A DNA stretch of 64,000 nt. Origin: Sutcliffiella horikoshii. GTDB taxonomy: Bacteria > Bacillota > Bacilli > Bacillales > Bacillaceae_I. Shown here piece after piece: positions 8,492 through 60,000 of the stretch. The notes under the pieces were generated by a model, which saw nothing but the letters and a program-made list of their open reading frames with translations, searched no databases and was not told the origin of the DNA. How positions within the stretch are numbered: the stretch's first letter is position 1; the number at the start of each line of letters is the position of its first letter. The DNA lies in contig KV440964.1 of the NCBI GenBank assembly GCA_001636495.1, forward strand, positions 1,194,666-1,258,665, given 5' to 3'. Position numbers and translations under genes: made by a program.

Positions 8492-8617
8492 CAGTTAATT
8501 GTAGTGCAGGATGTGAGACTCCGGCGGGAGGTAGCGGTAGCTTGAGACCCCGCAACGAAGTGAGGAGGCTCAAGCACCGCCCCGCGGAAAGCGAACATCC
8601 GGAACGGAAATTAACTG
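8492..8617 (+). repeat. Structured interspersed repeat, copy 1
   Basis: A full-length 126-bp copy. The outer arms CAGTTAATT / AATTAACTG, a second stem GGATGT / ACATCC and inner stems GCGGT / ACCGC and CTTGAG / CTCAAG are all complementary. It shares the sequences GACTCCGGCGGGAGGTAG and GCCCCGCGGAAAGCGAAC with the other copies. It lies inside the yrk operon, between yrkH and yrkJ, in the same direction as transcription. Confidence 0.85.
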
Positions 8618-8665
8618 AGTAATATGCAACACCGTACTAGTTAGACCTAGAAGGAGGGATGCTTT

Positions 8666-9448
8666 ATGGAATTTGATATTATGTGGCTTGTAGCTTTGTT
8701 TGCGATAGGTTTTATTGGTTCGTTTGTGTCTGGGATGGTTGGTATTGGTGGTTCGATTATCAAGTATCCGATGCTTTTGTATATTCCACCGATGCTCGGT
8801 CTTACTGCACTTACGGCGCATGAGGTGTCAGGTGTCAGCGCGGTTCAAGTGTTTTTTGCCACCATCTCCGGTGTGTGGGCCTACCGTAAAGGTGGCTACT
8901 TAAATAAAGACCTTATCATATACATGGGAGTAAGTATCCTGATTGGTAGTTTTATCGGAGGATATGGTTCCCGCCTTATGAGCGCTGATGGTATTAACAT
9001 GGTTTACGGTATTCTTGCACTTATAGCTGTTATTATGATGTTCGTTCCTAAAAAAGGCATTCATGAGATTCCACTTGACCAGGTTACTTTCAATAAGACA
9101 TTGGCTGCCCTCCTAGCATTTATCGTCGGTATCGGTTCCGGTATTGTGGGGGCGGCAGGAGCGTTCCTGCTTGTACCGATTATGCTTGTTGTACTGAAAA
9201 TCCCTACACGAATGACCATAGCCACTTCATTGGCAATCACGTTCATTTCCTCTATCGGCAGTACTGTCGGGAAGATTACCACTGGCCAAGTGCTGCTTGT
9301 ACCTGCCATCGTCATGGTCATCGCAAGTATTATCGCAGCACCAATCGGCGCAAAGCTCGGCCAAAAGCTGAATACGAAAGTGCTTCAGTGGATTTTAGCG
9401 TTATTAATATTAGCGACAACTATTAAAATTTGGTTGGACATTATCTAA
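8666..9448 (+). CDS. yrkJ: TauE/SafE-family sulfite/organosulfonate exporter (YrkJ)
   Basis: A 260-residue integral membrane protein with about eight hydrophobic segments and the glycine-rich [12 protein letters not shown] and [10 protein letters not shown] stretches of the TauE/SafE (DUF81) family. It matches B. subtilis YrkJ. The start ATG follows AGGAGGG. As the last gene of the sulfur operon it probably exports sulfite or another oxidised sulfur product of the rhodanese and YrkH reactions; substrate and direction are inferred from family and neighbours. Confidence 0.9.
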
Positions 9449-9476
9449 ATGTGCGATTCGTTAATAGAAACTAATA

Positions 9477-9527
9477 TAAACCAGGTGCAAATCACTCCTT
9501 AAGTGATGGCACCTGGTTTATTTTTTA
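9477..9527. terminator. Bidirectional terminator between yrkJ and the giant gene
   Basis: A long stem (AACCAGGTGC / GCACCTGGTT, with inner ATCACT / AGTGAT) is followed on the plus strand by TATTTTTTA. It can also stop the converging giant gene on the minus strand. Confidence 0.85.
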
Positions 9528-9561
9528 TAGCCATATTGCTCTTCGGTAAGAACTTAAGAAC

Positions 9562-12500
9562 TTATATATCTAAACAATCAAACAGCACTTGACTAGCAAT
9601 AAATGTGTAAGGTGTGACTTGATCTTGCGTAACGACTGAAGTGAATACCCTTGGTGTAGGTGTTGGTGGATAGGAAGGTTTGCAAGAGTCATAACTTCCT
9701 TCTCCTCTTGCTTTTCGACGCAGAGCATTCTTATATCGGAAGTACTCATAAAGCGACATCTCACAAACTCTAGGGCGGCACTCTTCTTCACACTCACAGT
9801 CACAAGGGTCCACCGGTTTTGGTGGAGGCGGAACCGTTCCGCACGTAGTCCTTGTCGTTGTTACCAATGTGTAGTTCACATTCACTTGAACTTCTGAAGG
9901 AATGAACTCCTCTGTTCCTTCTTCCGTAATGCTTTGACACAATATGATGGAGGAAACGTCAATATCTTCAATGCTTAAAGTCACGTTGGAAGCAGAAGGT
10001 GTTTCGATTAAGATTTCCTCAAGCACCTGCGATAATGGGAGGATACGACTTGTGCATTGTTGCGTTTCTGAACTGTAGGACAGGACAACATATCCGCTGA
10101 CGGTTATCACATAACGTGTGCCATTTTCCTCTTCGGGGTTTCCGAGTTGCGTTAAGGTCACTAACGAAGACAAGGGCACAATATTTCCTTCATCATCCAC
10201 CGTAACAGTCGACACTTCTACTTCCCCTACAGCGCTACATGGACTATTTTGGAGTAAACTGAACTCCAGTAATAGATCTGTCAATTCTGGTACTGTCACT
10301 TCAAATGTCCGCGATTGGAAACCTGGTGCAGTAATGGTCACTTCATATACCCCTGCAGGTAGAGAGTCAAAGAAAAATAACCCATTGGATGTTACATCTG
10401 TAAATGGTCCGACTACCGGACCAGTAATGGTGACTATTGCTCCGTTTATAATTGTCCCATTCAATCTATTGAATACCAATCCCGTTAAAGTGCTCGGATT
10501 GTCGTCTAGATTAAATATGACAGCCCCGCTTGGAAGATTTACAATTTGCTGCTCGGAAACATATCCTTCCAACTGGACTATAACGAGATAATCTACACCT
10601 TCCCGCAGGTTATTAAAAATTATTTCGCCATTATTATCTGTTAAACCGCTGACCACAAAGTTAAAGTTGGTCCCATCAATAGCATAGACAAGTACCCTTG
10701 CATTCTCTAAAGGATTCGTATCATTATCTCTCACAATTACTTCTAAAGGAGAGGTATTTTGATCTAAAGTAACGTTAACGGTAGTGTTTCCTCCTGGAGT
10801 GATGGTGAACGGGATGCTCTCTGTTACAAAGCCTGGGCTTGAAACAACCAAGTTATAATCTCCAGCCGCCAAGCCCTCTATAAGATAATTGCCATCCGAA
10901 TCAGTTATCGTGGTAACGACTTCCAAATTGGTATTGACTATAACAACCGTCACACTAGAGCCCATTTGCGGGCCAGATACCACACCTGATACGGATCCAG
11001 GGTTACTATTCAACGGGATATTCAGTGTGCTCGATTGTAAAGCTGGAAGCACTAACTGATCTAACCTGATTTCATAATTTGGATAGGTGGTATTGATCCG
11101 ATAGTTCCCAGGCGCTAACCCTTCTGCCAAATACTCTCCATTCACTGAACTAAGCGTTCTCCTGACAAGCAAGCTCGTGTTGCTATCATAAATCTCTACC
11201 GTTGCCCCCACTAAAGGAATGGATGTGAGGCTGTCAAAAACAATTCCTGATAAGTTAACTGGGTTATCTCCTAATTCAATGTCAACGTTATTAGTATCTG
11301 CTGTAAGCTGAATGGTTCTTATTCCCGATTGATAATTAACATTAATGGCAGTAACGGTATAAAACCCTTCCGGAATGCCTGAAATCGAGTAAAACCCTTC
11401 CGTTCCCACTTGCCCACTGGTTTGTGTGGTACCTACAATATTTCCATCAATATCAATAATCCTGACAAGTGTATCAGCTAAGCCCAACCCATTATTGGTG
11501 ATGGTCCCAGTAATGGTAAATTCATTCTGATCAAGCATAAAACTGAGGTTATTGGTAGTGTCACTCACAATGATGGTACCTAATTGAGCAGATGCAAAGC
11601 CGTCTGCAGATACGAAAACGATATATGTCCCAGGGTTTAGTCCGGTGGAGAGAAAGTTTCCATCATTATCTGTTACACCGTTCCAAACGATAGGACCTGT
11701 GTTAGAGCCTTCCCTAATTAGAATGGAAGCGTTTGGTATTGGTGCTCCATCGCTTACACTTCCTGAGACAAAACCAGGGTTAGGAAGCAAAGCAAAACCA
11801 AGATTCACCGTCTCGTTAGAAATAATGATGGCTCCGGCAGTCTGTGGACCATAATTTAAACTGTCCGCATAGACCGTATAAGTTCCAGGATTAAGTCCAT
11901 TAAACTGATAATATCCATCCTGTCCGCTCACTACCTGACCTACAATCGTGTTAGAAAAATCAACAACAGTGATAACCGCTCCACTAATTGGAAGCCCCGT
12001 TAATACGTCTATCGCATACCCTTCCAGATTACCAGGAAGAGGAGATAACTCCAAAACGACTGACTGCGGATTCATGGAATCGCTAATGACACCTTTCGTA
12101 TCTGTTCCAAAGTTTTCTGCATCCGCTGAAATTATCAGGCTTGCTTCGGGAAGATTTGTAAATATAACCTCTCCGTTTTCATCCGTTACTCCAGTAGCAA
12201 GAATGAGATTATTGGATGCGTGTCGCACCGTTACCAGTGCACCGGGAATCCCGTTAACTGTATCTGCTACCAGAATTGTCACAATTACGGTTGTTACAAT
12301 GGCAGACAGAGGAACGTTAAGGGATACATCTGTACCATCCACAATAGCCGCAACTGTATTTGTATTAAAAGCAGGAGCGGAAGCTGTTACAAAATAAGTC
12401 CCATTCGGTATATTCAAAAATTGAAAACTGCCATCTAAGCTATTTGCCAGCGTGGTGGCTACCAATACATCATTCGTATTATACAGAGCAACCTGAATGT

Positions 12501-15500
12501 TTGGACCAACAAGCGGATTGGTCCCATCCGTTACAATCCCCGTTACAGTAAAGCTTGTGGGCTGTAATAAAATATTGGCCGCAGACGTAATACCTTCGAA
12601 AACAGTGACACCCTGAACCTCCGTACTAAAATTTGGTGCACTTGCAGTAATAGTATAGCTACCGACCGACAAAGATGGGATGAAGAAAGCGCCATTCAGA
12701 TCGGTGGAAACCGTCGCTACCACTGTATTGGTGGATACAGAACGAACAACGATGGTTGCGTCCGGAATAAAGTCCCCCGGATCCAAAATACTCGCAACCG
12801 TTCCCGAAATGTTCCCAACCGTTCTTGAGAGTGTGACATCCAACGTATTTGCCCCTGCTGCTATAACACTACCTAAGGCTACCGTTGAAAAATCAGGGGC
12901 GGTGACCCTCACGATGACAGTCCCTAACGGTAATCCCCCAAATGAATAAAAGCCGCTCGCATCCGTGAAGGCTGTACCAAGTATCGTTTCATTTAAGTCT
13001 GTTATCGTAACAATAGCATTTGGAATAGTTTGTGCAGGAGCATCCAAGGTACTGATTGTTCCACTTAAACTACCAACCACTGAAGACAAGGTGATATCTA
13101 CAATTGTGTTCGTATTTGCCTCAACAATGGCTCCTGCTCCGGCTGTTGAAAAGGTAGGTGCAGTAGCAGTAACAATATAGCTTCCAGGTGCCAAATTAGA
13201 AAAACTGTAAAAGCCTACTGAATCTGTTATGACGGAAGCGATGAACTGATTGGTAGAAGTATAAATCTGGACTTGTGCATTAGGTATAGGTACACTCAAT
13301 TCATCTGAAATGGTTCCGCTTATACTCCCTGGTTGAGTGTTCAAAGCCAAGTTCGCAACGCTGGTTGTATCTGCTATAACGATAGTACCAACGGACCCTT
13401 GCTCAAAATTTGCTGCAAAAGCGATGATGGTGTACCCACCAGGTGCCAAACCGCCGGAGCGGTAAAACCCCTGACTATCTGTAAAAATAGTTTGTATTAG
13501 GACCCCATTCTGGTCAATAACTTGAACGGTAGCCCCAGTAATTCCTTCGGTGGGCGCATCCGCATTGACGATGGTTCCCTGTATAAATCCTGGGTTTGGA
13601 AGAAGGAAAATATCCACATCTGTCAATTCCGCTTGGTCCAGTATGACAGTTGCCCCATTTGTCTGGAATCCTGTTGCAGACGCAATAAGGGTGTAAGTTC
13701 CAAAAGCCAAGTCAGGTGTTTGGTAGTTTCCGTTCCCGTCTGTTATAACCGTAGCCACAACTCCTCCACTGGCATCGAGCAGTCTTACTTCCACATTTGC
13801 CGCGGATATTGGTCCTCCCGTAGATAAAATGGTCCCGGATATAAACCCAGAGTTAGTGGTAAGGGTGAAATTGACTTCTGTTTCGGCATTCGATGAAACA
13901 ACGGCTCCTGATATAGCACTTTCAAAACCGAGAGCATTTACGAATACCACATAATTGCCAGGGGCCAGGTTAGGAACTCTGTAATACCCCTGCCTTAAGA
14001 CCATTCCTTCAGTAAATGTCCCTGTGACGGTCGTTGCAACAATCGGTCCTGCTGCAGAATCCTGTCTAATTGTCACCAGAGCCCCATTGATATCGGGATC
14101 GACCTCTCCAAAAATAGCCCCAGGGGAACCCTGTAATATAAAGTTAATCGTAGTTGTCTCGAATGCTTCCACAATAGCTCCGCTTACAGCTGTCTCGAAA
14201 TTATTAGCTGTAGCCACCACGGTATAAGAGCCGGGTGCGAGACTTGTAAACGAGTAATTTCCATTTTCATCCGCTTGCGTTACCCCTATTAAAATGCCGT
14301 TTTGAAGTAAATTAATGGTTGCTCCAGCCACATTAACCGTTCCTGAAATGTTACCTGCCAGTTTGTTCAGGGAAACATTGACTACCTCAGCTCCTGGCGG
14401 GGTTGGCATAATGAATCCTACTGTTCTGGACGCATACCCGTCTGAAGTGAAAACAAGGGTATACGACCCAGGTTCTACACCGGTAAAACTATAATTACCC
14501 GTAGCTGTTACTACTGTGTCAATATTTTGGCCTAAGCTATTAAAGAGGTTTACTGTACCAGGAATCAACGGATTGGTAATGTCATCCCCATCCCGAATCT
14601 GTCCAGTTAACTGTCCGGTAGAAGCCACCAAGTTAAAATCAACTTCGGTCGATAAATCAGCTAACGTAATCACCGCTCCAATTTGCTGTGGAACATACCC
14701 ATCTGCATTTGCCCTTACCGTATAAGAACCGGGGGCCAGCCCTGAAATGGAGTAGGTACCCATGACATTTTCCAAGCTTGTAACAAGGATACCTTCACTT
14801 GTAAAAACAGAAATAGTAGTAGCCACCATAATTGGAGTGATGGTTCCGCTAATGGTTCCTACAATTGCGGATAAATTAAAATTCACCGTGGAGGTTTGAT
14901 TGGTTAATACGGTAACCCCGCGTGAATCGAATTGATATGCTGAATTTGTGGCCGTAACCGTATAACTACCAGGTGGTACATTTGTAAAAGAGTAAAGTCC
15001 TCCGCCGGCGGTAGTCGTTGTCTCCCTGACCGTACCAAAAGAATCAATTAGCGTCATCGTAACTCCATCTACTGGTGTTGCTACCCCTGTTGTCACTTGC
15101 CCACTAATGGTCCCTGGAACAGGAGTCAATAGGATGTCTTGTTCCAAAGCAGTATTTGCAATAACCGTCACATTCACCACTGACTGTTGATAGTTGGTAC
15201 CAGTAACGGTTACTGTGTAGTTACCAGAGGGTATGTTGGAAAAGCTGTAATTCCCCCCACTGTTACTGATAGTTTGCAAGTTTGCAGGTCCGGTAATAGT
15301 AACGGTAGCCCCAATAACGGGAAGACCGGTTAAGTTATCTAAAATTCTCCCAAAAAGACTACCTGCTGCGGTTACGGAAACAGTCGTACTGAAAGCACTT
15401 GAAATATCCCCCCCTGTAAAACTGTCAAACCCTCTAGCGGTGGACTGGTCTAGTGTTCTGGTTCCGGATGTGGAGAAAATACCAGTTGCCGTATAGGATA

Positions 15501-16413: not shown

Positions 16414-16433
16414 GTTGTCACTCCTTTTAGAAC

Positions 16434-16441
16434 AGTGTATA
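16434..16441 (-). promoter_or_regulatory. Possible sporulation-type -10 element of the giant gene
   Basis: The minus strand reads TATACACT, one mismatch from the SigE-type -10 CATACACT, and would place the transcript start just before the ribosome site. I see no convincing -35, so this is weak support for sporulation control. Confidence 0.25.
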
Positions 16442-16565
16442 GGGAATAGGTAGGTGATGTGCTAGGAATTTGTTGAAGGGATAAAATGTACAAGTCAAAA
16501 TTTCCCCATACAAATCTTGCTCATGTATAATGAAACCAACTACTTAAAAAGAAGGTTGCCTTGGT

Positions 16566-17021
16566 ATGCTTGATACATTGATGTTTTTTTACTTGGTTGT
16601 ACCGCTTGTCCACCTGGTTCATGAGGCTGGTCATGTGAGTATGGCGAAACTGCATAGAGTGAAAAACACGGAGATTGGGATTGGCGTAGGGCCAAAGATT
16701 ATCGATTTTAATTTTAAAGGGACACGAATTAGGATTAACATCATTCCGTTTTTTGGAGGGTACTCCAGCAATGACCTCACAAGGGAGTTGTCGAGCAAAG
16801 AGATTGCCTGGATTTCCTTTGGTGGGCCTTTATTTAACATCCTATCCATATTAATCTTCCTACCTTTCTGGACCCCATTCCAGTTCTCCTTTTCGGCCTT
16901 ATTCGTCTATTTCAGTCTCTGGATCGGTATCGTTAATCTTATTCCATTTAAACTAGGCGAAAAATGTTCCGATGGTTGGCAAATTGCGTCTTCGCTAATC
17001 AAACTAGTAAAAAATAGATAG
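16566..17021 (+). CDS. Small M50-family (site-2-protease-like) membrane metalloprotease
   Basis: A 151-residue membrane protein. The zinc motif HEAGH is at residues 19-23 in the first hydrophobic segment, and the second metal ligand motif SDGW (Asp136) lies near the C-terminus. A GGPLFN turn typical of the family sits near residue 86. It is much shorter than RseP/SpoIVFB proteins and has no PDZ or CBS domain, so it may be a minimal peptidase; its substrate is unknown. It is followed 15 bp later by the YueD-like reductase gene on the same strand. Confidence 0.8.
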   Translation: MLDTLMFFYLVVPLVHLVHEAGHVSMAKLHRVKNTEIGIGVGPKIIDFNFKGTRIRINIIPFFGGYSSNDLTRELSSKEIAWISFGGPLFNILSILIFLPFWTPFQFSFSALFVYFSLWIGIVNLIPFKLGEKCSDGWQIASSLIKLVKNR

Positions 17022-17036: not shown

Positions 17037-17795
17037 ATGAACTATTTTATTGTCACAGGCTCTTCAAAAGGGCTGGGAGAAGCCACAGCGAAACTACTAT
17101 TAAAAGAAAACCATCATCTGATTTGTATTGCCAGGAATGATAACAAAGACTTGGAAACGGAAGCAGTAGAGAACGGGGCAGAAATCACTTTTTTACAAGA
17201 GGATTTAAGCAAGCATGAACGAGTGACCGGGATTGTACAATATCTCCTATCAAAAATTGAGAAGGATGGTCAGGCAGAGGGGATTTACCTGATTAACAAT
17301 GCGGGAATGGTTGATCCAATCAAGCCCGCGGGGAAAGCGGACGAGCCTTCCATGACAAAAGCGGTTCACCTTAATCTTCTTACACCTATGCTGATGATAA
17401 ATGAGTTCATTCGCCTAACAGAGGATTGGGACTGCAAAAAGGTGATCGTCAATATTAGTTCCGGCGCAGCGAATCGACCGGTACATGGATGGAACACGTA
17501 TTGCACCACAAAGGCGGGGCTTGATATGTTTACAAAATCTGTGGGCTTAGAACAAAGCCAAGCTGTACATCCGACAACCATTCTCTCCTTTTCGCCAGGT
17601 GTGATGGATACGGCCATGCAAGGAGTCATCCGTAGCTCTGATGAAAAAGACTTCAGCAATGTCGAGACATTCAAGTCCTATCATGAAGAGGGTCAATTAA
17701 GAAGTCCCGAGTTTGTAGCCGAGAAAATGTTAGATCTATTATTTTCAGTAGATGTTGAAAATGGAAGAGTCTATGATATAAAAGAATTTCTCTAA
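17037..17795 (+). CDS. Short-chain dehydrogenase, YueD-like ((S)-benzoin-forming benzil reductase type)
   Basis: A 252-residue NAD(P)H-dependent Rossmann-fold reductase. TGSSKGLG at residues 7-14 binds the cofactor, NNAG is at 87-90, and the catalytic Ser near 141 and YCTTK (Tyr155, Lys159) are present. Overall similarity is to sepiapterin reductase-like YueD of Bacillus, known to reduce benzil to (S)-benzoin; the natural substrate is unknown. The ribosome site is GGGAGTG. A terminator follows directly, so it ends the two-gene unit with the M50 protease. Confidence 0.85.
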   Translation: MNYFIVTGSSKGLGEATAKLLLKENHHLICIARNDNKDLETEAVENGAEITFLQEDLSKHERVTGIVQYLLSKIEKDGQAEGIYLINNAGMVDPIKPAGKADEPSMTKAVHLNLLTPMLMINEFIRLTEDWDCKKVIVNISSGAANRPVHGWNTYCTTKAGLDMFTKSVGLEQSQAVHPTTILSFSPGVMDTAMQGVIRSSDEKDFSNVETFKSYHEEGQLRSPEFVAEKMLDLLFSVDVENGRVYDIKEFL

Positions 17796-21769: not shown

Positions 21770-21774
21770 AGAAA

Positions 21775-21840
21775 GTTGATTTCCGTTCCAGGCGCTTCGC
21801 TTTCCCGCGGGAGTCTGCGCGCCTTCCACTACAATCATCA
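21775..21840 (-). repeat. Structured interspersed repeat, copy 2 (internally deleted)
   Basis: It retains both ends of the repeat in reverse orientation (TTGATTTCCGTTCCAGG at one side, CTTCCACTACAATCAT at the other) but lacks the central stem. It is a deletion derivative of about 66 bp. Confidence 0.65.
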
Positions 21841-21901
21841 AGGTAATACCATTCACCGAAAGGATAACTAGAAACTCTCTAAACGATGTGATTGGGTTCT
21901 A

Positions 21902-32881: not shown

Positions 32882-32911
32882 ACTATTTTATTAAGTTAAA
32901 TAAATTTCCTA

Positions 32912-33038
32912 GCTGTTGATTGGAGCAAAAGGCGAAGACTCCTGAGGGAGATAGCGCTAGGTGGAGACCCCGCAGGCTTGCCGAGGAGGCTCCAGCAGCG
33001 CCCCTAGGAAAGCGTAGCCATTTGCGGAAATCAACAGC
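32912..33038 (+). repeat. Structured interspersed repeat, copy 4 (fadN-fadA)
   Basis: A full-length copy inside the fad operon. Outer arms GCTGTTGATT / AATCAACAGC are perfect; then AAAGGC / GCCATTT-type pairing, and inner stems GCGCT / AGCGC and TGGAG / CTCCA. The last pair replaces CTTGAG / CTCAAG of other copies on both sides, so pairing is kept. Confidence 0.88.
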
Positions 33039-33093
33039 GGTGTTAAAAGCAGAATTAAATCTACTAAACTACTAGAAAAGCGAGGGGAGCAAT

Positions 33094-34272: not shown

Positions 34273-34321
34273 ATAGAATGTTTATAAAAGTTGAATAGAT
34301 ATGTTATTAAAATGTGATTTC

Positions 34322-34452
34322 CCCTGTTGACTGAAGTGCAGGGAGTTCGACTCCGGCGGGAGGTAGCGGTAGACTTGAGACCCCGCAGCGAAGCGAGGAG
34401 GCTCAAGCACCGCCCCGCGGAAAGCGAACACCCGGAACGGAAGTCAACAGGG
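34322..34452 (+). repeat. Structured interspersed repeat, copy 5 (fadA-fadE)
   Basis: A full-length copy. Outer arms CCCTGTTGACT / AGTCAACAGGG, second stem GGG..TTCG / CGAA..CCC, inner stems GCGGT / ACCGC and CTTGAG / CTCAAG. It lies between fadA and fadE in the direction of transcription. Confidence 0.88.
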
Positions 34453-34503
34453 AGTTAACCAGAAACCAAATGTTTTTTAATAACCACTCGGGAGGAAAAC
34501 AAA

Positions 34504-39281: not shown

Positions 39282-39297
39282 TGGGATTTGTTGAAAC

Positions 39298-39421
39298 GGT
39301 TCATTTCCGTTCCAGGCGCTTCGCTTTCCTGCGGGCGGTCCGGGAGCCTCCTCACTTAGTTGCGGGGTCTCCCCTGTCCCTTCCTCCCGCGGGAGTCTAC
39401 GCGCCTTTCACTTCAATCAAC
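39298..39421 (-). repeat. Structured interspersed repeat, copy 6 (reverse)
   Basis: A full-length copy on the minus strand. The central stem is GGGAG / CTCCC instead of CTTGAG / CTCAAG, again changed on both sides. The ends are TTCATTTCCGTTCCAGGCGC and GCGCCTTTCACTTCAATCAA. It lies between the yusE terminator and the MFS gene; nothing else is seen in that 305-bp gap except the inverted repeat at 39499-39529. Confidence 0.85.
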
Positions 39422-39498
39422 ATAAGAATTTTTTATCTTAAAATTTGTTGATTTCGACCCATTCACCTATTGCCATTTTTCTGAAAAAGGAGTAAATT

Positions 39499-42322: not shown

Positions 42323-42503
42323 ATCTCTTATCGAGAGAGGTGGAGGGACGTGCCCGATGAAACCCGGCAACCGTCAACAAGGAATTGTTGAAATTGGTGC
42401 CAAATCACACAAAGCAAAGGTATTTGCTTTGGTAGATGAGAGAAAGGACTTTTCTCATTTAATCCTTTCTGCTCATTGTTGCGGAAGGGAGTTTTTATTT
42501 TTC
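42323..42503 (+). ncRNA. SAM-I (S-box) riboswitch with terminator
   Basis: Contains the diagnostic CTTATCGAGAGAGGTGGAGGG and CCCGATGAAACCCGGCAACC blocks. The P1 helix is formed by TCTTATC and GATGAGA (to about 42440). An antiterminator AGAAAGGA / TCCTTTCT competes with a terminator hairpin CCTTTCTGC / GCGGAAGGG at 42464-42489 followed by TTTTTATTTTT. High S-adenosylmethionine should stop transcription before metN. Confidence 0.96.
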
Positions 42504-46165: not shown

Positions 46166-46186
46166 CTGTTTATAAAGTTCTCCCTG

Positions 46187-46246
46187 GTTAATTGTAGTGC
46201 AAGTTATGAGACTCCGGTGGGAGGTAGCGGTAGACTTGAGTTAACT
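46187..46246 (+). repeat. Structured interspersed repeat, copy 7 (truncated)
   Basis: The first half of the repeat is present (GTTAATTGTAGTGCAAG, GACTCCGGTGGGAGGTAGC, GACTTGAG), after which it jumps to a terminal GTTAAC. The right half is deleted. The 370-bp gap up to sufC holds this copy, a terminator and the suf promoter. Confidence 0.75.
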
Positions 46247-51812: not shown

Positions 51813-51904
51813 TTTCTAACCCCCTAATTAATTTGGACACGCTTAGACCTCCGGTTACACTTAAATTATTGTGTCTATCCTTTAGAAGAAGGGGGTGACT
51901 TAAT

Positions 51905-52216
51905 GTGCCTAGGAAGAAAATTCAAGTCATTGAGGAAGTGAAGAAGAAGTATGTCCGACTCGTGATTGAGTCTGGCAAACATCTTTCAATAGCCCAGCAG
52001 GCTGGTATATCTAGAGAGACTTTAAGAAAATGGATGAATGAATATGAAGATCAAGTAAGGGAAGAGATGGAAGCAGAAGGCAGCACTTCATCTGTCCTTT
52101 CAGATAACCCGACAAGAAATGAAATGCGTGATAAATATGAACAAGCTATGAGGTTGTTAGGAGAAAAAGAATTAGAAGTAGCGATGTTACGCTCCCTTCT
52201 AAAAAAAAGTACCTAA
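51905..52216 (+). CDS. IS3-family transposase OrfA
   Basis: A 103-residue helix-turn-helix protein starting at GTG 51905 behind AAGGGGGTG. The HTH is in LSIAQQAGISRETLRKWMNEY, followed by a leucine-zipper-like helix (EQAMRLLGEKELEVAMLRSLL). It binds the element ends and regulates transposition. The frame ends just after an A8 run (52201-52208), the presumed -1 frameshift site leading into OrfB. Confidence 0.9.
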   Translation: MPRKKIQVIEEVKKKYVRLVIESGKHLSIAQQAGISRETLRKWMNEYEDQVREEMEAEGSTSSVLSDNPTRNEMRDKYEQAMRLLGEKELEVAMLRSLLKKST

Positions 52217-53181
52217 CAATAAGAGAAAGGCTAGAGGAAGCTTATCAGTGGATAGGCGAAGGTGTTGGTGTAAAAAAAACGATGGAAGTAATGGGGGTTC
52301 ACCGATCTTTATATTATTACCATCTTGAAGAAAGGACGGACAAGGAAGTGGGGAAAAGGCCTGGAAGACCTAGACCTGGATATTCCTACACAGAGTCAGG
52401 CGTTATCGTTCCTGATGCTCAAATAGAGGAGTTTCTGAGTGAAGCTGTGGAAGGAGAGATTGGATCTTACGGGTATCAAAATCTTACGAGGTATCTTCGT
52501 AACGAATATCATTTAATAATTAATCCCAAAAAAGTCTATCGACTATGTACTGAATTAGATATTTTAGCACCGAGACGTCATTTACCATCTCCATATCCTA
52601 AAAGATTGGCGAAGAAGCATGAAATTACAGGTCCAAATCAATTATGGCAAGTAGATATTAAGTATGGCTCCCTAAAAGAAAGTAACAGGTTCGTTTTTCT
52701 AGCGAGTGCCATAGATGTGTTTGATCGGCGAATTGTTGGTTATTACCGAGGTCCAAATTGTAAGGCGGAGAATATAACAGAAATGCTTCAGAGAGCGCTT
52801 CTTCAACGCCAAGTTCATATGCCTGATGGAGAAAAAAAAGAGGAATTTAGTATCATTATTCGAAGTGATAATGGACCTCAGTTTACAAGTAGTGCGTTCG
52901 GGAAATTCTGCGCACGAAATAAGGTATTCCATGAGCGAATTCCACCAAAATCGCCTAATCTCAACGCTTATATAGAGTCCTTTCACAGTATCATTGAAAG
53001 AGAGTGTTATCAGCGTTATGAAATGGAATTTTTTGAGGAAGCGTACTACTGGATAGATGAGTTTATGGATTTTTATAATAACAGACGATATCACGGAAGT
53101 TTAGGTCATCTCTCGCCTGTGCAATATTTAAAAAAATACCAAGAGATTGGTTTTCAAGAGGGGATGGCAGTAAATTTATAG
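52201..53181 (+). CDS. IS3-family transposase OrfB (reached by -1 frameshift)
   Basis: Contains the HTH_21 region and an rve integrase core: first Asp in QVDIKYG, second in IIRSDNGPQF, and Glu in NAYIESFHSIIE, the DDE triad; it ends YNNRRYHGSLGHLSPVQYLKKY. In the -1 frame the reading continues without a stop from the A8 slip site (52201-52208); the first ATG in frame is 52282, without a good ribosome site. The OrfAB fusion would be the active transposase. About 300 residues from the ATG. Confidence 0.9.
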   Translation, partial: KKKYLTIRERLEEAYQWIGEGVGVKKTMEVMGVHRSLYYYHLEERTDKEVGKRPGRPRPGYSYTESGVIVPDAQIEEFLSEAVEGEIGSYGYQNLTRYLRNEYHLIINPKKVYRLCTELDILAPRRHLPSPYPKRLAKKHEITGPNQLWQVDIKYGSLKESNRFVFLASAIDVFDRRIVGYYRGPNCKAENITEMLQRALLQRQVHMPDGEKKEEFSIIIRSDNGPQFTSSAFGKFCARNKVFHERIPPKSPNLNAYIESFHSIIERECYQRYEMEFFEEAYYWIDEFMDFYNNRRYHGSLGHLSPVQYLKKYQEIGFQEGMAVNL

Positions 53182-53233
53182 AGAAGGAAATAGGTCCCTT
53201 AAAACAGAAGAACAGGAAACTTCATTCATGTAC

Positions 53234-53340
53234 GACTTGATGTGGAGGCCACGCATGATAACCTATTCGGTGCAGCCAGATGTATTATCATCTGGGTTCC
53301 TGGTAGGAGAATTATGCGTGGAGAGGCTCCATGTCAAGTC
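53234..53340 (+). other. Long structured hairpin in the IS 3' region
   Basis: GACTTGA-TG-TGGAG (53234-53247) pairs with CTCCA-TG-TCAAGTC (53327-53340), CACGCAT (53250-53256) with ATGCGTG (53314-53320), and an inner CCAGATG / CATCTGG hairpin completes the fold. It lies in the 280-bp non-coding 3' part of the IS between orfB and the right end. Confidence 0.7.
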
Positions 53341-53468
53341 ATTCTGGGCCAATAAACAACATCCTGATATTTATAAGGGAGCTATTTCCTTATACAAAAA
53401 ATGAAAAACTAAGAACAATAGAGTAAATCGGAGTTTGTGTACAATAATTAGGGGGTTAAGCCGTTACC

Positions 53469-53573
53469 GACAGTATTTGGCCAAGTTTGGACAGTATTTT
53501 AACCGAATCGGATAGTAAATGTGTCATCTTGGACAGTAAGTGAGAAATGGATGATTCATATGGACACGAATAT
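53469..53573. repeat. 21-bp tandem array, right part
   Basis: Units start at 53469, 53490, 53511, 53532 and 53553, exactly 21 bp apart, with GAYAGTA at the beginning of the first four. The last is decayed. Not coding: the phase is a multiple of 3, but the frames contain stops. Confidence 0.75.
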
Positions 53574-53640
53574 CACCCCGAGGTCACTTTTTCATAAAAA
53601 TAATTCGATAGAACACAGAAAATGTCAGTAAAAGTGATTC

Positions 53641-54504
53641 TTAATCTATTTCTTTTCCTGATAAGTAAAAATTATCATTTACCCTGCTGGAGTCTTTCCC
53701 CTTCACCCTCTTCAACGTCGCCACAATAAGAAAGCTTACTATCACTAGCAAAAGCCAGGAGCTGACCTTTCCTAGGTGGACAAGGCTCCATGCCTCTGTT
53801 TGGTTTGGATACTCCCAAGCCCCGAAAAATGTTGCGATGTTTTCCGCAACCCATATGAAAAACCCGATGAGGACAAAGGAAAAAGCGATAGGCATACGGT
53901 AACTCTTTTCTCCAACTTCATACCTTACCCAAGACTTCCAAAAAAGGATGATGACCAATCCGGATAGCCACCAACGAATATCGACCCAATAATGATGGGT
54001 GAAGAAGTTAAGGTAAATGGCTGCTGCGAGTGATACAACGGCCCAAAAAGGCGGCCAGTCAACAAGCTCCACATTCAACCTTCTCCAAGCCTGACAAAGA
54101 TAACTCGCAACACTTGCATACATAAACCCGCTATATAATGGCACGCCGAAAACCTTGGAATAGCCTTCCTCTGGATAAGACCAAGATCCCATGTGCACCT
54201 TGAAGATCTCAAGTGCCAGCCCTATAAGGTGAAACAAGGTGATGACTTTTAATTCATCGCGGGTTTCCAATCCAGACCGTAACATCCACCATTGCATCAG
54301 AATGCAGATTACGAGAAGCCAATCATACCGAGGCAGGAAGGGAAGAGGAATCACTTGGGTGATGGCCAAAGACGCGAATATGACAACAGGAAATACACAT
54401 GATAATGCCTGTTGCCAACCAAAGCGGATAAGTTGCTTGAATGCATCCACCCCAGACCATTCCTTCTTCTTTAGCCCTAAACCAAGATTTATGCCCCTAC
54501 CCAT
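53641..54504 (-). CDS. DUF817 membrane protein (YoaT-like)
   Basis: About 287 residues with some eight hydrophobic segments, belonging to the DUF817 family (B. subtilis YoaT). The start at 54504 has AAGAGG 7 nt upstream; an in-frame ATG at 54525 lacks a site. Its start overlaps the end of a short HTH-gene remnant, as in the yoaS-yoaT pair of B. subtilis. Trp- and Tyr-rich loops (GSWSYPEEGYSKVFGVPLYSGFMYA) are typical. No known function. Confidence 0.82.
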   Translation of the reverse strand: MGRGINLGLGLKKKEWSGVDAFKQLIRFGWQQALSCVFPVVIFASLAITQVIPLPFLPRYDWLLVICILMQWWMLRSGLETRDELKVITLFHLIGLALEIFKVHMGSWSYPEEGYSKVFGVPLYSGFMYASVASYLCQAWRRLNVELVDWPPFWAVVSLAAAIYLNFFTHHYWVDIRWWLSGLVIILFWKSWVRYEVGEKSYRMPIAFSFVLIGFFIWVAENIATFFGAWEYPNQTEAWSLVHLGKVSSWLLLVIVSFLIVATLKRVKGKDSSRVNDNFYLSGKEID

Positions 54505-54613
54505 TTTGGGGTTCCTCTTCATCACTTTGATATTCTAAAATATCTCCTGGTTGACAATCCAACGCCTTGCAGATTCCCTCTAATGTAGAGAAACGAATGG
54601 CCTTTGCTTTCAT
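54497..54613 (-). pseudogene. Remnant of a Cro/CI-type HTH regulator (YoaS-like), N-terminus missing
   Basis: A 38-codon frame (start ATG 54613, GAGGTG upstream) encodes MKAKAIRFSTLEGICKALDC followed by QPGDILEY. This is the second half of a small XRE regulator; the helix-turn-helix recognition part usually before KAKAIRFSTLE is absent and a stop codon lies upstream in frame. It may be a decayed gene or a truncated peptide kept for translational coupling to the DUF817 gene. Confidence 0.65.
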
Positions 54614-54634
54614 CAATGACACCTCACAATTACT

Positions 54635-54690
54635 ATATTATTTATTGAATTTACCATATTATTTATTGTAAAACAATAAAATTTTATTGT
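54635..54690. promoter_or_regulatory. Direct repeats and palindrome upstream of the HTH remnant
   Basis: ATATTATTTATTG occurs at 54635-54647 and 54656-54668, 21 bp apart, and a perfect 18-bp palindrome ACAATAAAATTTTATTGT follows at 54673-54690. Probably the old operator/promoter of the HTH gene. Confidence 0.45.
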
Positions 54691-54726
54691 ATTAATGACA
54701 GGGTGTTCATTTTATATTTCATTGAG

Positions 54727-54956
54727 ATGAGGACCTCTCGTACAAAAAAATCAGAAGGAAGAGGTCTTCATACTCGAAATGAGGACCTCTCTTACTAAAA
54801 AATCAGGAGAAAGAGGTCTTCATACACGAAATGAAGACCTCTCGTACAAAAAAATCAGGAGAAAGAGGTATTCATACACGAAATGAGGACCTCTCTTACA
54901 AAAAAATCAGGAGAAAGAGGTCTTCATACTCGAAATGAAGACCTCTCTTACAAAAA
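54727..54956. repeat. 52-bp tandem palindromic repeat array
   Basis: Units start at 54727, 54779, 54831, 54883 and 54935 (the last incomplete), exactly 52 bp apart. Each unit is a hairpin: ATGARGACCTCT pairs with AGAGGTCTTCAT across a linker of 18-20 nt rich in A. The unit length is not a multiple of 3, so it is not a coding repeat. There is no gene between 54614 and 55057. Confidence 0.9.
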
Positions 54957-55011
54957 AACAGCAGGGGTCAACTACTCTAAACAGTTCATCCCAATCATCT
55001 CCCATCCCAAA

Positions 55012-55042
55012 AGAAAAAGCATTCCCTCAAAAAAGGAATGCC
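55012..55042 (-). terminator. Terminator of the VC0807-like gene
   Basis: On the minus strand GGCATTCC pairs with GGAATGC across a T-rich loop, followed by TTTTTC. Confidence 0.75.
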
Positions 55043-55057
55043 CCAACAAACGCCATA

Positions 55058-55720
55058 TCACCGAACGAGCTCCGAATCTTCCGAGTCCGGAGCATCATTT
55101 TCTTTCTGCTTCTCCAAATGCTCATTGATCTTCAAACTAGAATAAATGAACCCCACAGCAATCAACGCACCAAACACCCAGCCATTTATCTTCATATAGA
55201 AGAGGATTCTGTCATATCCCTGTACTCCATAGACACCAATAAGATAGTATTTCAATCCTGCACCGACAAGCCCCCGCAAAGCGAATATCCCGGTGATGAA
55301 ATAAAATGCAGGAAGAATGGTTTTTTGACGATAGAGCTTTAAGCTGTCCTCACGCTTATGTCCCTGTAAATAGGCAATATCAGCGCCAAAATATAACGCT
55401 AATGGCCTTTTTACCAGCATCGTTCCCAATATGAACAAACCGAATCCGGCAGACACATATACCGAGTTCTGAAGCATGGTAAAGGCATCTCCTGAGAGAA
55501 TATCGACCAGGGTGCTGATAAGCAGGGAAACCATGATGAACATACCTGTCACATTAAACTGTCTCTCTACTGCGAAACGGACAATGGTGTACACAAACCC
55601 TGGCGCAGTGGAAAGCAGAATCGCATAATAATCTCCAAGCGGCTCTTGTCCAAATTTCCAAATTAAATAAGGTAAAGCCAAGTAAAATAGCAGGTCGAAT
55701 ACAACAATTTTATTTTTCAT
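55058..55720 (-). CDS. VC0807-family membrane protein
   Basis: About 220 residues; the start at 55720 follows GGAGGCACT, while the longer frame to 55747 would include the ribosome site. Six hydrophobic segments (for example LLFYLALPYLIW, GMFIMVSLLISTLVDIL) and a charged C-terminal tail (KQKENDAPDSEDSE). The overall pattern fits the VC0807 family of small membrane proteins of unknown function. Confidence 0.75.
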   Translation of the reverse strand: MKNKIVVFDLLFYLALPYLIWKFGQEPLGDYYAILLSTAPGFVYTIVRFAVERQFNVTGMFIMVSLLISTLVDILSGDAFTMLQNSVYVSAGFGLFILGTMLVKRPLALYFGADIAYLQGHKREDSLKLYRQKTILPAFYFITGIFALRGLVGAGLKYYLIGVYGVQGYDRILFYMKINGWVFGALIAVGFIYSSLKINEHLEKQKENDAPDSEDSELVR

Positions 55721-55836
55721 AGTGCCTCCGAAAAAATAGTAATACATTTATCATACCAATTACTCCCATAAACCGCACTACAAACATGAGATTTACCCGT
55801 CAATTATGATAAAATGTAAAAAATGAGGTGAAACGA

Positions 55837-56685
55837 ATGATTTATGTTGGTGTGACAGGATGGGGAGATCATGATTCCTTATATACGGCGGGAGTGGCGC
55901 CGAGAGATAAGCTGAAGGAGTATGGAGCGCATTTTCCTGTAGTGGAAGTGGATGCCTCCTTTTATGCTATACAGCCTAAGCAGAACGTCGAAAAGTGGGT
56001 GGCAGATACACCTGACAGCTTTCAATTCATCGTGAAAGCTTATCAAGGAATGACCGGACATCAGCGTGGGGAGATTCCATTTGACTCAAAAGAATTGATG
56101 TTCGAAGCTTTTAAAGAATCCATTGTACCATATGAGAAGGCCGGAAAACTGGCGATGGTCCTGTTTCAATTTCCTCCTTGGTTTGAATGTAAAAAGGAAA
56201 ACGTCGACTATATAAGATGGTGTAAGGAGCAGATGGGCGATACAAAGGTAGCCCTCGAGTTCCGCAACCAAACCTGGTTTCAACCTGCCTATCATGACAG
56301 AACGCTCACCTTTATGGAAGAGGAAGGTTGGATACATAGCATCTGTGATGAGCCGCAAGCAGGCAAGGGTTCGATTCCGACGGTCCTGCACCCAACCGAT
56401 CCCGACAATACTTTAGTTCGTCTGCATGGTCGGAACATCCATGGCTGGACCAAGGCTGTACCTGGGAAGGACTGGCGGGAGGTCCGTTATCTGTATGATT
56501 ATAACCAGGAAGAGCTATGGGAATGGAAAGAGAACTTGGAGAAACTAACCCCGTTATCCCAAAACGTTTATATGCTATTCAACAATAATTCTGGTGGTCA
56601 TGCTGCTGGAAATGCCAAACAGATGATTGACCTGTTGGGACTAGAGTACAAAGGCTTGGCCCCAAGGCAATTAGATTTATTTTAG
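55837..56685 (+). CDS. yunF: DUF72 protein YunF
   Basis: A 282-residue protein, the length of B. subtilis YunF, starting at ATG 55837 right after GAGGTG. DUF72 proteins have a TIM-barrel fold; typical stretches are YVGVTGWGDHDSLY, VVEVDASFYAIQ, LFQFPPWF and ALEFRNQTWF. Function is not known. It is followed 14 bp later by yunD. Confidence 0.92.
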   Translation: MIYVGVTGWGDHDSLYTAGVAPRDKLKEYGAHFPVVEVDASFYAIQPKQNVEKWVADTPDSFQFIVKAYQGMTGHQRGEIPFDSKELMFEAFKESIVPYEKAGKLAMVLFQFPPWFECKKENVDYIRWCKEQMGDTKVALEFRNQTWFQPAYHDRTLTFMEEEGWIHSICDEPQAGKGSIPTVLHPTDPDNTLVRLHGRNIHGWTKAVPGKDWREVRYLYDYNQEELWEWKENLEKLTPLSQNVYMLFNNNSGGHAAGNAKQMIDLLGLEYKGLAPRQLDLF

Positions 56686-56699
56686 AGGAGAGAAACCGT

Positions 56700-58067
56700 G
56701 TGCAGCAGATTAGAATTTTACATACAAACGACATCCACAGTCATTTTGATGCCTACCCAAAGTTAGCAACTTTTTTAAAGGAACAGGCTCCAGAACTAGC
56801 TACTGCTCTTGTCGATATCGGCGATAACATGGACCGTTTCCATCCTATTACGGAAGCTACCGGTGGAAAAGCCAATACAAGACTGTTTAACAAGCTACAA
56901 TATGACTTTGTCACTTTTGGCAATAATGAAGGGATTACCTTAGATTATCAGGGATTATCGGAACTCTATGAAGAGGCCGAATTTTCTGTTCTCGCAGCTA
57001 ATCTATTTGAACAGGATGGCTATTATCCTCACTGGGTGAAACCTTATGAAATAAAAGAAATGAATGGTGTGAAGGTAGCCTTTCTCGGGATTACTGTTTT
57101 CTATCAACATTTCTATTCCTTGCTAGGATGGAAAATAGAAGATCCTTATACTATTTTGAAAAAATATCTTCCTCTATTGAAGGAAGATGCAGACATCATT
57201 GTGGTACTCTCCCATCTTGGAATATCGGATGATGAGGAGCTAGCCAGAAGGTTTCCTGACATAGACATAATTCTTGGAGGACATACCCATCATGTGTTGC
57301 CGGATGGGAGACTTGTTGGTGATACACTCATTTGTGGAGCGGGAAAGTATGGGCAATACATTGGTCAGGTCGACCTCACCTATGACAAGGAAGAGAGGTC
57401 ACTTGTTGAAGCCACAGCCAAACTTCATAAGCTGGAACTTTTTGAGCCGGATAAAGAGTGTGTAGAGTTGATTAAAGGAATGCAACGATCAGCAGAACAG
57501 ACCCTGCATAAAAAAATCGGAAGTATAGAACAACCGCTTCCGGTACAGTGGTTTTCTCCTTCCGTTTTTCCTGATTTCCTCGCAGCTAGGTTGCGGGAAT
57601 GGTGTCAGGCGGATATCGGAATGGTCAACTCTGGAGTATTACTGGACGGTCTGGAGAAAGGGGACGTTACACTTGAGATGCTGCATCGCATCTGTCCTCA
57701 TCCCATCAATCCATGCCGGGTCACACTGACAGGTGAGGAACTGAGAGAGGTTGCTCAACAGGCTCTTCACCCGGAAATGGAGCAGTTGCGGGTCAAAGGG
57801 CTCGGATTCCGCGGGGAGGTAATGGGCAAAATGGCTTTCAGTGGTGTTCGTTTCGACAAGGAGCCTATTTCGGATGGCACTGTTCAAATCACCGCAATCT
57901 ATGTGCAAGATAGATTGTTGAAATCTACCGATACTGTTACAGTCGGAACGATCGATATGTTCACATTCGGGAGGATGTATCCAAGCATCATCCGGGCTAA
58001 AGAAAAGAAGTTCTTTTTGCCGGAACTGCTCCGAGATGTGCTGGCACATTCATTTTTGGGAGATTAA
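56700..58067 (+). CDS. yunD: Metallophosphatase / 5'-nucleotidase family protein YunD
   Basis: A 455-residue cytoplasmic member of the UshA/5'-nucleotidase family without signal peptide (B. subtilis YunD is similar in length). Metal motifs: LHTNDIHSHFD, DIGDNMDR, GNNEG, LSHLG and GGHTHH; a C-terminal 5'-nucleotidase domain follows from about residue 290. It may act as a nucleotide phosphatase or cyclic-nucleotide phosphodiesterase. The start is GTG 56700 behind GAGGAG. Confidence 0.9.
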   Translation: MQQIRILHTNDIHSHFDAYPKLATFLKEQAPELATALVDIGDNMDRFHPITEATGGKANTRLFNKLQYDFVTFGNNEGITLDYQGLSELYEEAEFSVLAANLFEQDGYYPHWVKPYEIKEMNGVKVAFLGITVFYQHFYSLLGWKIEDPYTILKKYLPLLKEDADIIVVLSHLGISDDEELARRFPDIDIILGGHTHHVLPDGRLVGDTLICGAGKYGQYIGQVDLTYDKEERSLVEATAKLHKLELFEPDKECVELIKGMQRSAEQTLHKKIGSIEQPLPVQWFSPSVFPDFLAARLREWCQADIGMVNSGVLLDGLEKGDVTLEMLHRICPHPINPCRVTLTGEELREVAQQALHPEMEQLRVKGLGFRGEVMGKMAFSGVRFDKEPISDGTVQITAIYVQDRLLKSTDTVTVGTIDMFTFGRMYPSIIRAKEKKFFLPELLRDVLAHSFLGD

Positions 58068-58134
58068 CCTATTTTTCACACCCTTTCCATGACATCACAT
58101 AAATTGATATGGGAAGGGAGCGTGACAATTATCT

Positions 58135-58437
58135 ATGATTGAAATGACACCAATTACAATCGAAGGCCATACGTTTACTGCGATTACAGTAAGGTTACCA
58201 AAAACCAATTTTCTGGCTGTTACAAGTGACAAGGGCTATATCATGTGCGGTGCGCTGGATGTTGGCTTGTTGAATGCCAAACTGAAGGACCGAAAAATCA
58301 TTGCAGGGCGGGCAGTTGGAGTGCGTACCATCGAGCAATTAATAGAGGCCCCTTTGGAATCCATTACGTATGAGGCGGAAAATGTAGGAATTACCGTAGG
58401 CATGACAGGCAAGGATGCATTATTGAAAATGCTATAA
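58135..58437 (+). CDS. yunC: DUF1805 protein YunC
   Basis: A 100-residue protein of the DUF1805/YunC family, same size as B. subtilis YunC (about 101). It contains GYIMCGALDVGLLN and AGRAVGVRTIEQL. Function unknown. The start ATG is preceded by GGGAAGGGAG. A terminator follows at 58529-58566. Confidence 0.92.
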   Translation: MIEMTPITIEGHTFTAITVRLPKTNFLAVTSDKGYIMCGALDVGLLNAKLKDRKIIAGRAVGVRTIEQLIEAPLESITYEAENVGITVGMTGKDALLKML

Positions 58438-58528
58438 AAAAGGATGAAGATGTGCTGGTTTGCATGTTTACTCCTATTATATATCCAGTGAGCTGGCTTC
58501 TGTCAGTGACAACGGAAAGTTTGGGAAA

Positions 58529-58566
58529 TGCCATCGTTAGGTAGTAGAAACGATGGTATTTTTGTG
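58529..58566 (+). terminator. Terminator after yunC
   Basis: CCATCGTT / AACGATGG stem with loop AGGTAGTAG, followed by TATTTTTG. Confidence 0.88.
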
Positions 58567-58699
58567 TTAATACACCGTACCCTAAGCCCCCATAAAAAAT
58601 TGTTCAAAACTTTTTTCAAAATTACCAAGCTTTATCAATAAATTTTTACTATAATAGGAAATATATAGATTTTGTCGAAATGTGAAGATAGGAGAAGTT

Positions 58700-59806
58700 A
58701 TGAGACTATTACCTACAAGATTAATGAAACCGGGAATGGTATTAGCCAGATCAATCTACAATGATTCCGGCAGGGTGCTGCTGAGCGCAGGTATATCTGT
58801 CACTTCACGAATGATTGCACGTCTGCAACAACTGAATGTTACATATGTATATATAGAAGATGCCCGTACAGATGGGATGGAAGTGCCGACGATCATCTCG
58901 GATAAAGTCCGAAAGGAAGCGGTAAAGACGATCACGGATACGTTCAAATCGGTGGAACATGAGAATGCATTAAGTAAATGGTTTGTGATGGACAAGTCGT
59001 CGAAGAACCTGAAGTCCCTTATTCAGCATCTGCTAACTGATATGAAATCCAATGATGAAGTGTCCGCATTATTGACCGATGTCTATGTGCATGACAATTA
59101 CGTATTTACCCATTCGCTTAATGTGACGCTTTATGCCCTGTCCATCGGATTGAAGCTTGGATTGTCACAGAAAGATTTAGAAATGCTGGGCTTGGGGGGC
59201 ATTCTTCATGATATAGGTAAGATGCTGGTTCCAAATGATATCTTATTCAAGCCTGGAAAACTTTCAAGCGATGAGTTTGCGGAGATGAAAAGACATGCGA
59301 CTTACGGTTATGATATTCTTCGCAATATGCAATCTATTCCGTTGATGGTTGCTCATTGTGCATTCCAGCATCATGAACGCCTTAATGGAAGCGGATATCC
59401 ACGGGGTATCAAAACGGATGACATCCATCTGTTCGGGAAAATACTTGCGGTTGCGGATGTGTTCGATGCTGTGACATCCCACCGAATTTATCGAAGTGCG
59501 ATGCTACCGCATGAAGGCCTGGAGATTCTTTACGCAGGCTCTGGGACCCTTTATGAGCCGGCAATTATTGAAGCCTTCCGAAAGTCGGTTGCCATCTATC
59601 CATACGGATTGATGATTACCTTGAATGATGGGAGAAAAGGACTGGTTGTCGGACAGAACAAGGATCTAACGGAGCGGCCGATTATCAGGATTGTGGAAGA
59701 AGAAGGAGAAGAGCTGGAAAAGCCTTATGATATTAACCTGAAGGATCAACATAATCTCGCGATTGTGGATTGTGATAGGCAGGATAATATTGCTGCGGTA
59801 AGCTGA
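58700..59806 (+). CDS. HD-GYP domain c-di-GMP phosphodiesterase-like protein
   Basis: About 368 residues; ATG 58700 with AGGAGA upstream is preferred to a GTG at 58682. An N-terminal DUF3391-like region (about 1-120) precedes an HD-GYP domain: HSLNV near 138, the HD pair in ILHDIGK at 170-171, QHHERLNG near 223 and GSGYPRG at 230-236. These residues bind metal and c-di-GMP in active members, so hydrolysis of c-di-GMP is likely. No membrane segment. A C-terminal small domain follows (about 300-368). It is a single-gene unit; a structured repeat starts 6 bp after its stop. Confidence 0.88.
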   Translation: MRLLPTRLMKPGMVLARSIYNDSGRVLLSAGISVTSRMIARLQQLNVTYVYIEDARTDGMEVPTIISDKVRKEAVKTITDTFKSVEHENALSKWFVMDKSSKNLKSLIQHLLTDMKSNDEVSALLTDVYVHDNYVFTHSLNVTLYALSIGLKLGLSQKDLEMLGLGGILHDIGKMLVPNDILFKPGKLSSDEFAEMKRHATYGYDILRNMQSIPLMVAHCAFQHHERLNGSGYPRGIKTDDIHLFGKILAVADVFDAVTSHRIYRSAMLPHEGLEILYAGSGTLYEPAIIEAFRKSVAIYPYGLMITLNDGRKGLVVGQNKDLTERPIIRIVEEEGEELEKPYDINLKDQHNLAIVDCDRQDNIAAVS

Positions 59807-59812
59807 TAGACT

Positions 59813-60000
59813 CCTGTAGATTTCCGTTCCAGGTGTTCGCTTTCCGCGGGGCGATGCTTGAGCCTCCTCACAACGCTTCAGGGGTCTCAACCTATCGCTA
59901 CCTCCCGCAGGACAAGGAAAGCTACGACAGCGATTCATCGCACGAAGAAAATGCGCTAGCATTTTCGAGGAGTCTCACACCTTGCACTGCAATCTACAGG
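59813..60000 (-). repeat. Structured interspersed repeat, copy 8 (reverse, with insertion)
   Basis: Perfect outer arms CCTGTAGATT / AATCTACAGG. The inner stems are GCGAT / ATCGC and CTTGAG / CTCAA. About 60 bp of extra sequence, including its own GAAAATGC / GCATTTTC hairpin, is inserted near one end, giving 188 bp. Confidence 0.82.

Follow-up and report, generated by a model that had tools for sequence, protein, structure and literature searches.

Repeat families of the REP, BOX and bcr1 types are mostly tied to a species group or genus; BOX elements have a modular build, and bcr1 is accompanied by a TTTAT duplication. The REP unit measures 20-40 nt, according to excerpts of two papers (PMC4666352, PMC3733652), and excerpts of a third describe REPINs as inverted dimers and ordered tandem arrays (PMC3116915). 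In Bacillus, the bcr repeats are intergenic and often found in UTRs and operon gaps, some with a conserved RNA fold (PMC3446304, in excerpt). Table 3 of PMC2267715 gives the BOX repeats of Streptococcus pneumoniae as intergenic, 100-200 nt long and present in many copies, and Bhal-1 of Bacillus halodurans as a 74-bp intergenic stem-loop family.

The element described here was found in a 64-kb stretch of the Sutcliffiella horikoshii genome (the whole stretch analysed, hereafter the window). It works like a repeat of the REP or BOX type, being non-autonomous and structure-dependent, and is probably a new, unnamed family. With REPs and REPINs, as their excerpted descriptions present them, it shares an intergenic location, hundreds of copies, palindromic arms, inverted dimers and tandem arrays. 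Unlike the 20-40 nt palindromic REP unit with its end tag, it is a long multi-helix hairpin of ~133 nt, and unlike MITEs, whose terminal inverted repeats are fixed, its outer arms vary with compensation in all 11 P1 pairs. Set beside the excerpted descriptions, it is like the bcr1/bcr repeats, intergenic repeats of Bacillus with a fold conserved in some, and like BOX in size, number and intergenic place. However, a title cited in the excerpted PMC3446304 makes bcr1 specific to the B. cereus group, unlike the range of the element, and BOX belongs to Streptococcus pneumoniae, of another genus, whereas the element spans several orders of a class. Bhal-1 is about the size of the short copies (72-76 nt), and identity with the family of the element is possible.

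Copies of the element in the window

The copies were searched for with two covariance models, R1 and R2, of 133 positions with 38 and 43 pairs, respectively. Eight places in the window had been predicted to hold a structured repeat and all of them carry it, as six full copies, one short copy and one truncated copy, listed here with the spacer of the dimer:

8488..8620, + strand: full copy, type A; R1 E 3e-36; RNA fold z -6.4; sense to both neighbour genes
21770..21845, - strand: short copy that has type C ends and lacks the inner domain P4-P6; forms the left half of a head-to-head dimer
21846..21898, no strand: dimer spacer, 53 nt; 72-85% identity with the spacers of three other dimers of the same genome
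21899..22033, + strand: full copy, type B; R1 E 2e-20; z -5.0; right half of the dimer
32909..33040, + strand: full copy, type B; R1 E 1e-26; z -4.9
34320..34453, + strand: full copy, type A, in the gap before fadE; R1 E 2e-36; z -6.7
39294..39427, - strand: full copy, type C, antisense; R1 E 2e-20; z -2.3
46181..46240, + strand: truncated copy, reduced to the 5′ half; identity with the 34320 copy 80% over 60 nt
59811..60003, - strand: full copy, type A, with a ~59-nt extra module; R1 E 6e-18 for 59811-59944

The six full copies were matched by R1 with E-values from 2e-36 to 6e-18 in the 64-kb window, values that are not independent because five of the six are among the 33 copies from which R1 was built. 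The short copy, which like others of its kind retains both ends and lacks the inner domain, was matched by R1 (E 4e-7 over 21770-21841) and by R2 (E 1e-8). The truncated copy reached only E 0.03 with R1 and is absent from the R2 matches at E≤0.01. In the 59811 copy, the ~59 extra nt are placed between GAGAC and TCC, and the same module recurs in other copies. The outer helix arms of the 34320 copy are formed by 34322-34332 and 34442-34452. The 32909 copy sits between a fadB-like gene, which we take to be fadN, and an acetyl-CoA C-acetyltransferase gene, and the 39294 copy lies directly after a terminator-like hairpin, as judged by eye. The block CCCCGCGGAAAGCG (up to 2 mismatches) occurs 8 times in the window, against a mean of 0.13 in shuffles; five of these occurrences are within the listed copies and three, at 17326, 27276 and 57803, are outside.

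The original prediction could not name a described family, and in the window only Lysine and SAM scored above their Rfam gathering thresholds. The SAM riboswitch lies at 42325-42442 (+) and the lysine riboswitch at 60134-60324 (+), the latter just downstream of the 59811 copy and before a Na+/H+ antiporter-like gene (match below the family cut-off). A separate repeat at 54724-54983 consists of tandem units at 52-bp spacing, 76-92% identical to the reference. For one copy searched against Rfam at E≤5, the sole match scored 10.8 bits, the gathering score being 50. No description of the element was recognised in searches of open-licence papers, including passages of PMC8632094 and PMC2864571, and its sequence strings were matched there only in a fish paper.

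A conserved hairpin with covarying helices

The copies, of which the basic unit is ~130 nt and the full form ~133 nt, have in common one long hairpin of stacked helices on one strand. From the 5′ end, the order is P1 (outer arms), a purine-rich internal loop (GGA or GAA opposite GGA), P1b/P2, GAC, P3, P4, P5 and the tip P6. P3 is formed by TCCN-bulge-NGGG paired with CCCN-NGGA and is followed by AAAGC, and P6 is a variable tip of few pairs, bordered by GAGACCCCGCA and GAGGAGG. Conserved unpaired blocks accompany the helices and are among the best conserved parts of the element. The outer arms quoted in the original prediction are present and paired. RNA folding of five full window copies, the 59811 copy being left out, placed four of them 4.9-6.7 sd below shuffles and the 39294 copy just 2.3 sd below, with 5 of 200 shuffles as good.

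In an alignment of 33 copies of the own genome, double changes were seen in 24 of 39 pairs, against 3-8 in slid controls, and in a 101-copy alignment covering 15 genera (own genus, 87 copies) in 36 of 43, against 13-19 with partners slid. Both alignments (the first by MAFFT plus hand structure, the second with model-fitted rows) lean towards the fold by construction, hence a tree-aware null was run in the manner of R-scape. This home-made test, which is not R-scape, compared 60 null alignments with 87 of the 89 rows of alignment A6, also fitted to the model; two rows with fewer than 105 letters were dropped, and ~20 of the 89 come from the own genus. Among all column pairs at least 4 apart, 13 were significant at E≤0.05, all of them in the proposed fold and none outside (P1, 1; P1b/P2, 5; P4, 3; P5, 3; P6, 1). 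The other 30 proposed pairs were below significance in these 87 rows. P3 has no covariation power across genera because it is nearly invariant there; within the own genome, double changes affect two of the eight P3 pairs. The original prediction held that the fold is kept while the sequence changes and proposed covariation analysis as its check; the pairs with double changes in the 101 copies and the 13 significant pairs found by the R-scape-like test support it.

The replacement of Watson-Crick pairs was also compared with that in riboswitches. In a raw count, G-U exceeded A-C by 74 to 51 (riboswitch control, 21 to 6). This count is weak, and events were therefore counted on the tree: changes from Watson-Crick to G-U outnumbered those to A-C by 47 to 23 across genera (p 0.009) and by 58 to 32 in alignment A4. 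The SAM riboswitch control gave 12 and 3, a ratio from which the element does not differ significantly (p 0.54). Folding favours the sense over the antisense strand in 68 of 87 copies, in 70 of 101 copies of another set and in 30 of 30 sequences of the SAM riboswitch control.

Pairing could also be maintained by mutation, if template switching at imperfect hairpins copied arm onto arm and kept the stems paired without selection. Copies with the middle inverted or swapped between types do exist, and direct double changes (174) exceed single steps out of a Watson-Crick pair (148) in the cross-genus tree, an excess that says little for template switching because the SAM riboswitch control shows the same (28 against 19). 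However, such a process leaves the conservation of the unpaired blocks unexplained and predicts equal numbers of G-U and A-C events, contrary to the tree count. Mutational pairing is a very improbable source of the near-perfect stems.

Copy number and range

In 784 kb of the own genome (G000, 4.26 Mb), window included, R2 found 65 places at E≤0.01, i.e., ~1 copy per 12 kb, after removal of two opposite-strand shadows and with one place cut by the end of a stretch. Outside the window, 58 places in 720 kb (20 in the 320 kb of the first 16 sampled stretches and 38 in the 400 kb of the next 20) extrapolate to ~340 copies per genome, a rough figure because the stretches were chosen at round coordinates once an earlier hit list was known. 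The window has 7 copies at this threshold, or 1 per 9 kb.

R2 matches were found in 154 of 199 genomes of the order, representing 79 of 97 genera; in this survey up to 16 candidates per genome were scored, and a count of 16 means at least 16. In the class, 68 of 250 genomes had matches, 56 of these belonging to other orders; the best E was 1e-28, and some genomes gave no more than one or two weak matches. Eleven out-of-order copies were read and retain the core blocks or close variants. Similar sequences occur in Bacillus intergenic regions. The original prediction placed such sequences in Bacillaceae: relatives do carry the element, and its range is wider, extending to other orders of the class. 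An exact pattern search of a named collection matched 19 stretches, 11 in Sporolactobacillus laevolacticus, two in Planococcus maitriensis and one each in Lentibacillus sediminis, Cytobacillus firmus, Pseudalkalibacillus hwajinpoensis, Bacillus sp. MRMR6, Bacillus sp. CH30_1T and an uncultured Bacillaceae bacterium. At E≤1e-5, four plasmid records were matched (two of Priestia megaterium, one of Bacillus badius and one of Niallia taxi), one of the matches spanning most of the query, and no phage record.

Turnover, dimers and arrays

At one site (L115:5863), the element is present in 2 of 16 species of the genus (G003 and G011), and in the other 14 no more than 18 nt separate the flanks, which are 76-98% identical. 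No clean target-site duplication was seen in the empty sites, which were compared at one locus. Of the 16 species, 14 have an R2 match in the gap before fadE (13 with R1), the exceptions being G004 and G005; the copy is decayed in G009 and short in G014. Copies at some places, such as this gap, look old and inherited, which counts against mobility. Those before fadE differ in sequence type, so they have undergone replacement or conversion, or are fresh insertions. Behind the fadB-like gene, the gap is occupied in 10 of 16 species, carries a scar in one and is empty in five; the seemingly empty fadN-fadA site of G007 was rejected as empty because it is this scar, in which the right arm remains.

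The 65 places in 784 kb include eight neighbouring pairs at most 600 nt apart, and in all eight the 5′ ends face each other, giving the inverted doublets typical of REP/REPIN families. Seven of them join type C with A or B, and four have spacers of 50-53 nt that are mutually 72-87% identical. Facing pairs also occur in other genera (G103, G217 and Lentibacillus). Tandem arrays of 3-7 units are found in four species: 6 units in G008, 7 in G007 and 4 in G003, by eye at one common locus, and 3 in G015 elsewhere. The array spacers are ~32 nt long and related to each other; a CRISPR reading was rejected, the spacers being alike by eye and the units ~133 nt. Presence or absence at one site, together with the dimers and arrays, speaks for mobility.

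Similar terminator-like hairpins (GGGCGGTTT..GCCYGG) follow the dimers at L091:18962, L092:13808, L163:13583 and ~22070 of the window, the last judged by eye, and may mark a small transcription unit. Chimeric-looking copies (L153:1264-1396, L115:5157-5437 and L116:4955-5084) have the middle inverted or swapped between types, as if made by hairpin template switching. At L162:10940-11232, the halves of a type C copy flank a type B copy, through nesting or recombination, and an inverted repeat marks the borders. The possibility of a larger parent element, its two halves separated by a gene, was also considered; none was recognised among 28 isolated half-cores in the 784 kb, of which several are variant copies that the patterns missed and many are chance matches in genes or 16S rRNA.

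Search for a mobilising partner

The original prediction included a REP-like element moved by a transposase, and a candidate is RAYT, the Y1 REP-associated transposase that would move a REP/REPIN family. Y1 transposase gave one or two matches in each of the 16 genomes of the genus (weak in one, G005), and RAYT was matched in 123 of the 199 genomes of the order. The own genome has a sole RAYT-like gene, L043:2743-3336. By eye, an M23 peptidase-like and a gamma-glutamyltransferase-like gene flank it, with a spoIID-like gene close by, and several genomes of the genus have close relatives of its protein. RAYT is commoner in genomes with at least 16 copies (odds ratio 2.3, p 0.008, ancestry not corrected), and the inverted dimers and tandem arrays recall REPINs. 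However, RAYT is absent from 28 of the 98 copy-rich genomes. Over the 199 genomes, 101 have both element and RAYT, 53 the element only, 22 RAYT only and 23 neither (p 0.055), a weak association without correction for ancestry. Unlike in REP/REPIN families, there is no strict dependence on RAYT presence, and no copy was found with R1 or R2 at E≤0.01 beside 21 RAYT genes (94,421 bases, ~2 kb around the genes), where seven or eight would be expected if the density of the own genome applies; R2 gave two marginal matches there, at E 0.03 and 0.10. In addition, the unit is several times the size of a REP. RAYT as a necessary mover was rejected on its absence from some copy-rich genomes and the lack of copies at its loci, which leaves the guess of a REP transposase without support and a RAYT-driven family improbable.

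Reverse transcriptase (one match in the own genome), TnpB and IS110 (no match there) were rejected as partners, since none was positively associated with the element in the 199-genome order survey. TnpB is rarer in element-rich genomes (odds ratio 0.19, p 8e-8, ancestry not corrected). Seven genomes with at least 16 copies have none of the four candidates, and no mobilising enzyme for the element was found among these four.

Placement and orientation

Placement was judged on genes represented by home-made calls of ORFs of at least 80 aa. None of 54 copies lies inside an ORF, a result partly built in because the calls had left out ORFs shorter than 900 nt that overlap a copy. In the 784 kb, type A copies in co-directional gaps are sense in 11 of 12 cases (p 0.006) and type B copies in 17 of 23 (p 0.03); type C is sense in 3 of 11 and antisense in 8 of 11, which alone is not significant (p 0.23). 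Types A and B together (28 sense, 7 antisense) differ from type C (Fisher p 0.002). Types were assigned by pattern and two short type C copies were counted as A, and the sense counts stand because both lie in convergent gaps. Downstream of sense type A copies, the next ORF starts within 33-61 nt in 9 of 11 cases. Where genes run against replication, the copy takes the orientation of the genes in 8 of 9 cases, assuming that coordinate 1 is near the origin. A terminator lies beside 4 of 17 type C copies, compared with 11 of 600 stretches drawn at random without regard to intergenic position, in a count of 59 of 64 copies sorted by hand into types; this adjacency is only suggestive.

Taken from sequence, the orientation bias and the excess of G-U over A-C lean towards an RNA role, and the element may often be read into messenger RNA. 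Strand-biased mutation could give the same G-U and strand pattern. An RNA role might be that of a host module rather than of a mobile passenger, i.e., a protein-binding or RNase-processed structure in leaders and operon gaps, duplicated and kept for regulation. The sense bias of types A and B, the short distance from type A to the next ORF, the retention of copies in the fad gaps, the preservation of close variants of the unpaired blocks over several orders and the G-U excess are consistent with it. However, the genes near the window copies (fad genes, SufC, an MFS-transporter-like gene and others) have no common theme and do not form the one functional class expected downstream of a riboswitch. 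Type C is mostly antisense, presence differs between close species and ~1 copy per 12 kb is far above the needs of a regulon, making a host module unlikely.

Nature and significance of the element

The element is probably a family of non-autonomous interspersed elements, mobilised in trans through its folded strand. The original prediction had proposed an RNA element, a REP-like element moved in trans, or both: mobility is supported by the presence and absence at one site, the dimers and the arrays, and an RNA lean is seen, whereas the guess of a REP transposase is not supported. A trans-acting factor would recognise the fold when single-stranded, as nascent RNA or single-stranded DNA, and the fold would be kept by this recognition. 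Copies landing in transcribed gaps would then be kept mostly in the orientation that does little harm or helps once in the mRNA. In a bolder and quite unlikely reading, the copies would be a bacterial SINE-like family, ancient and class-wide, that spreads via its own folded transcript by a host or extinct activity that belongs to none of the known partners of mobile elements, and from which mRNA leaders and operon gaps draw hundreds of interchangeable RNA modules.

One folded element retained at high copy number across many Bacilli families, and lacking the transposase that would be expected, would be a family missing from Rfam and would offer a natural test of whether such repeats act as RNA. 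It may also matter to how operons are expressed in many bacteria of soil and industry.
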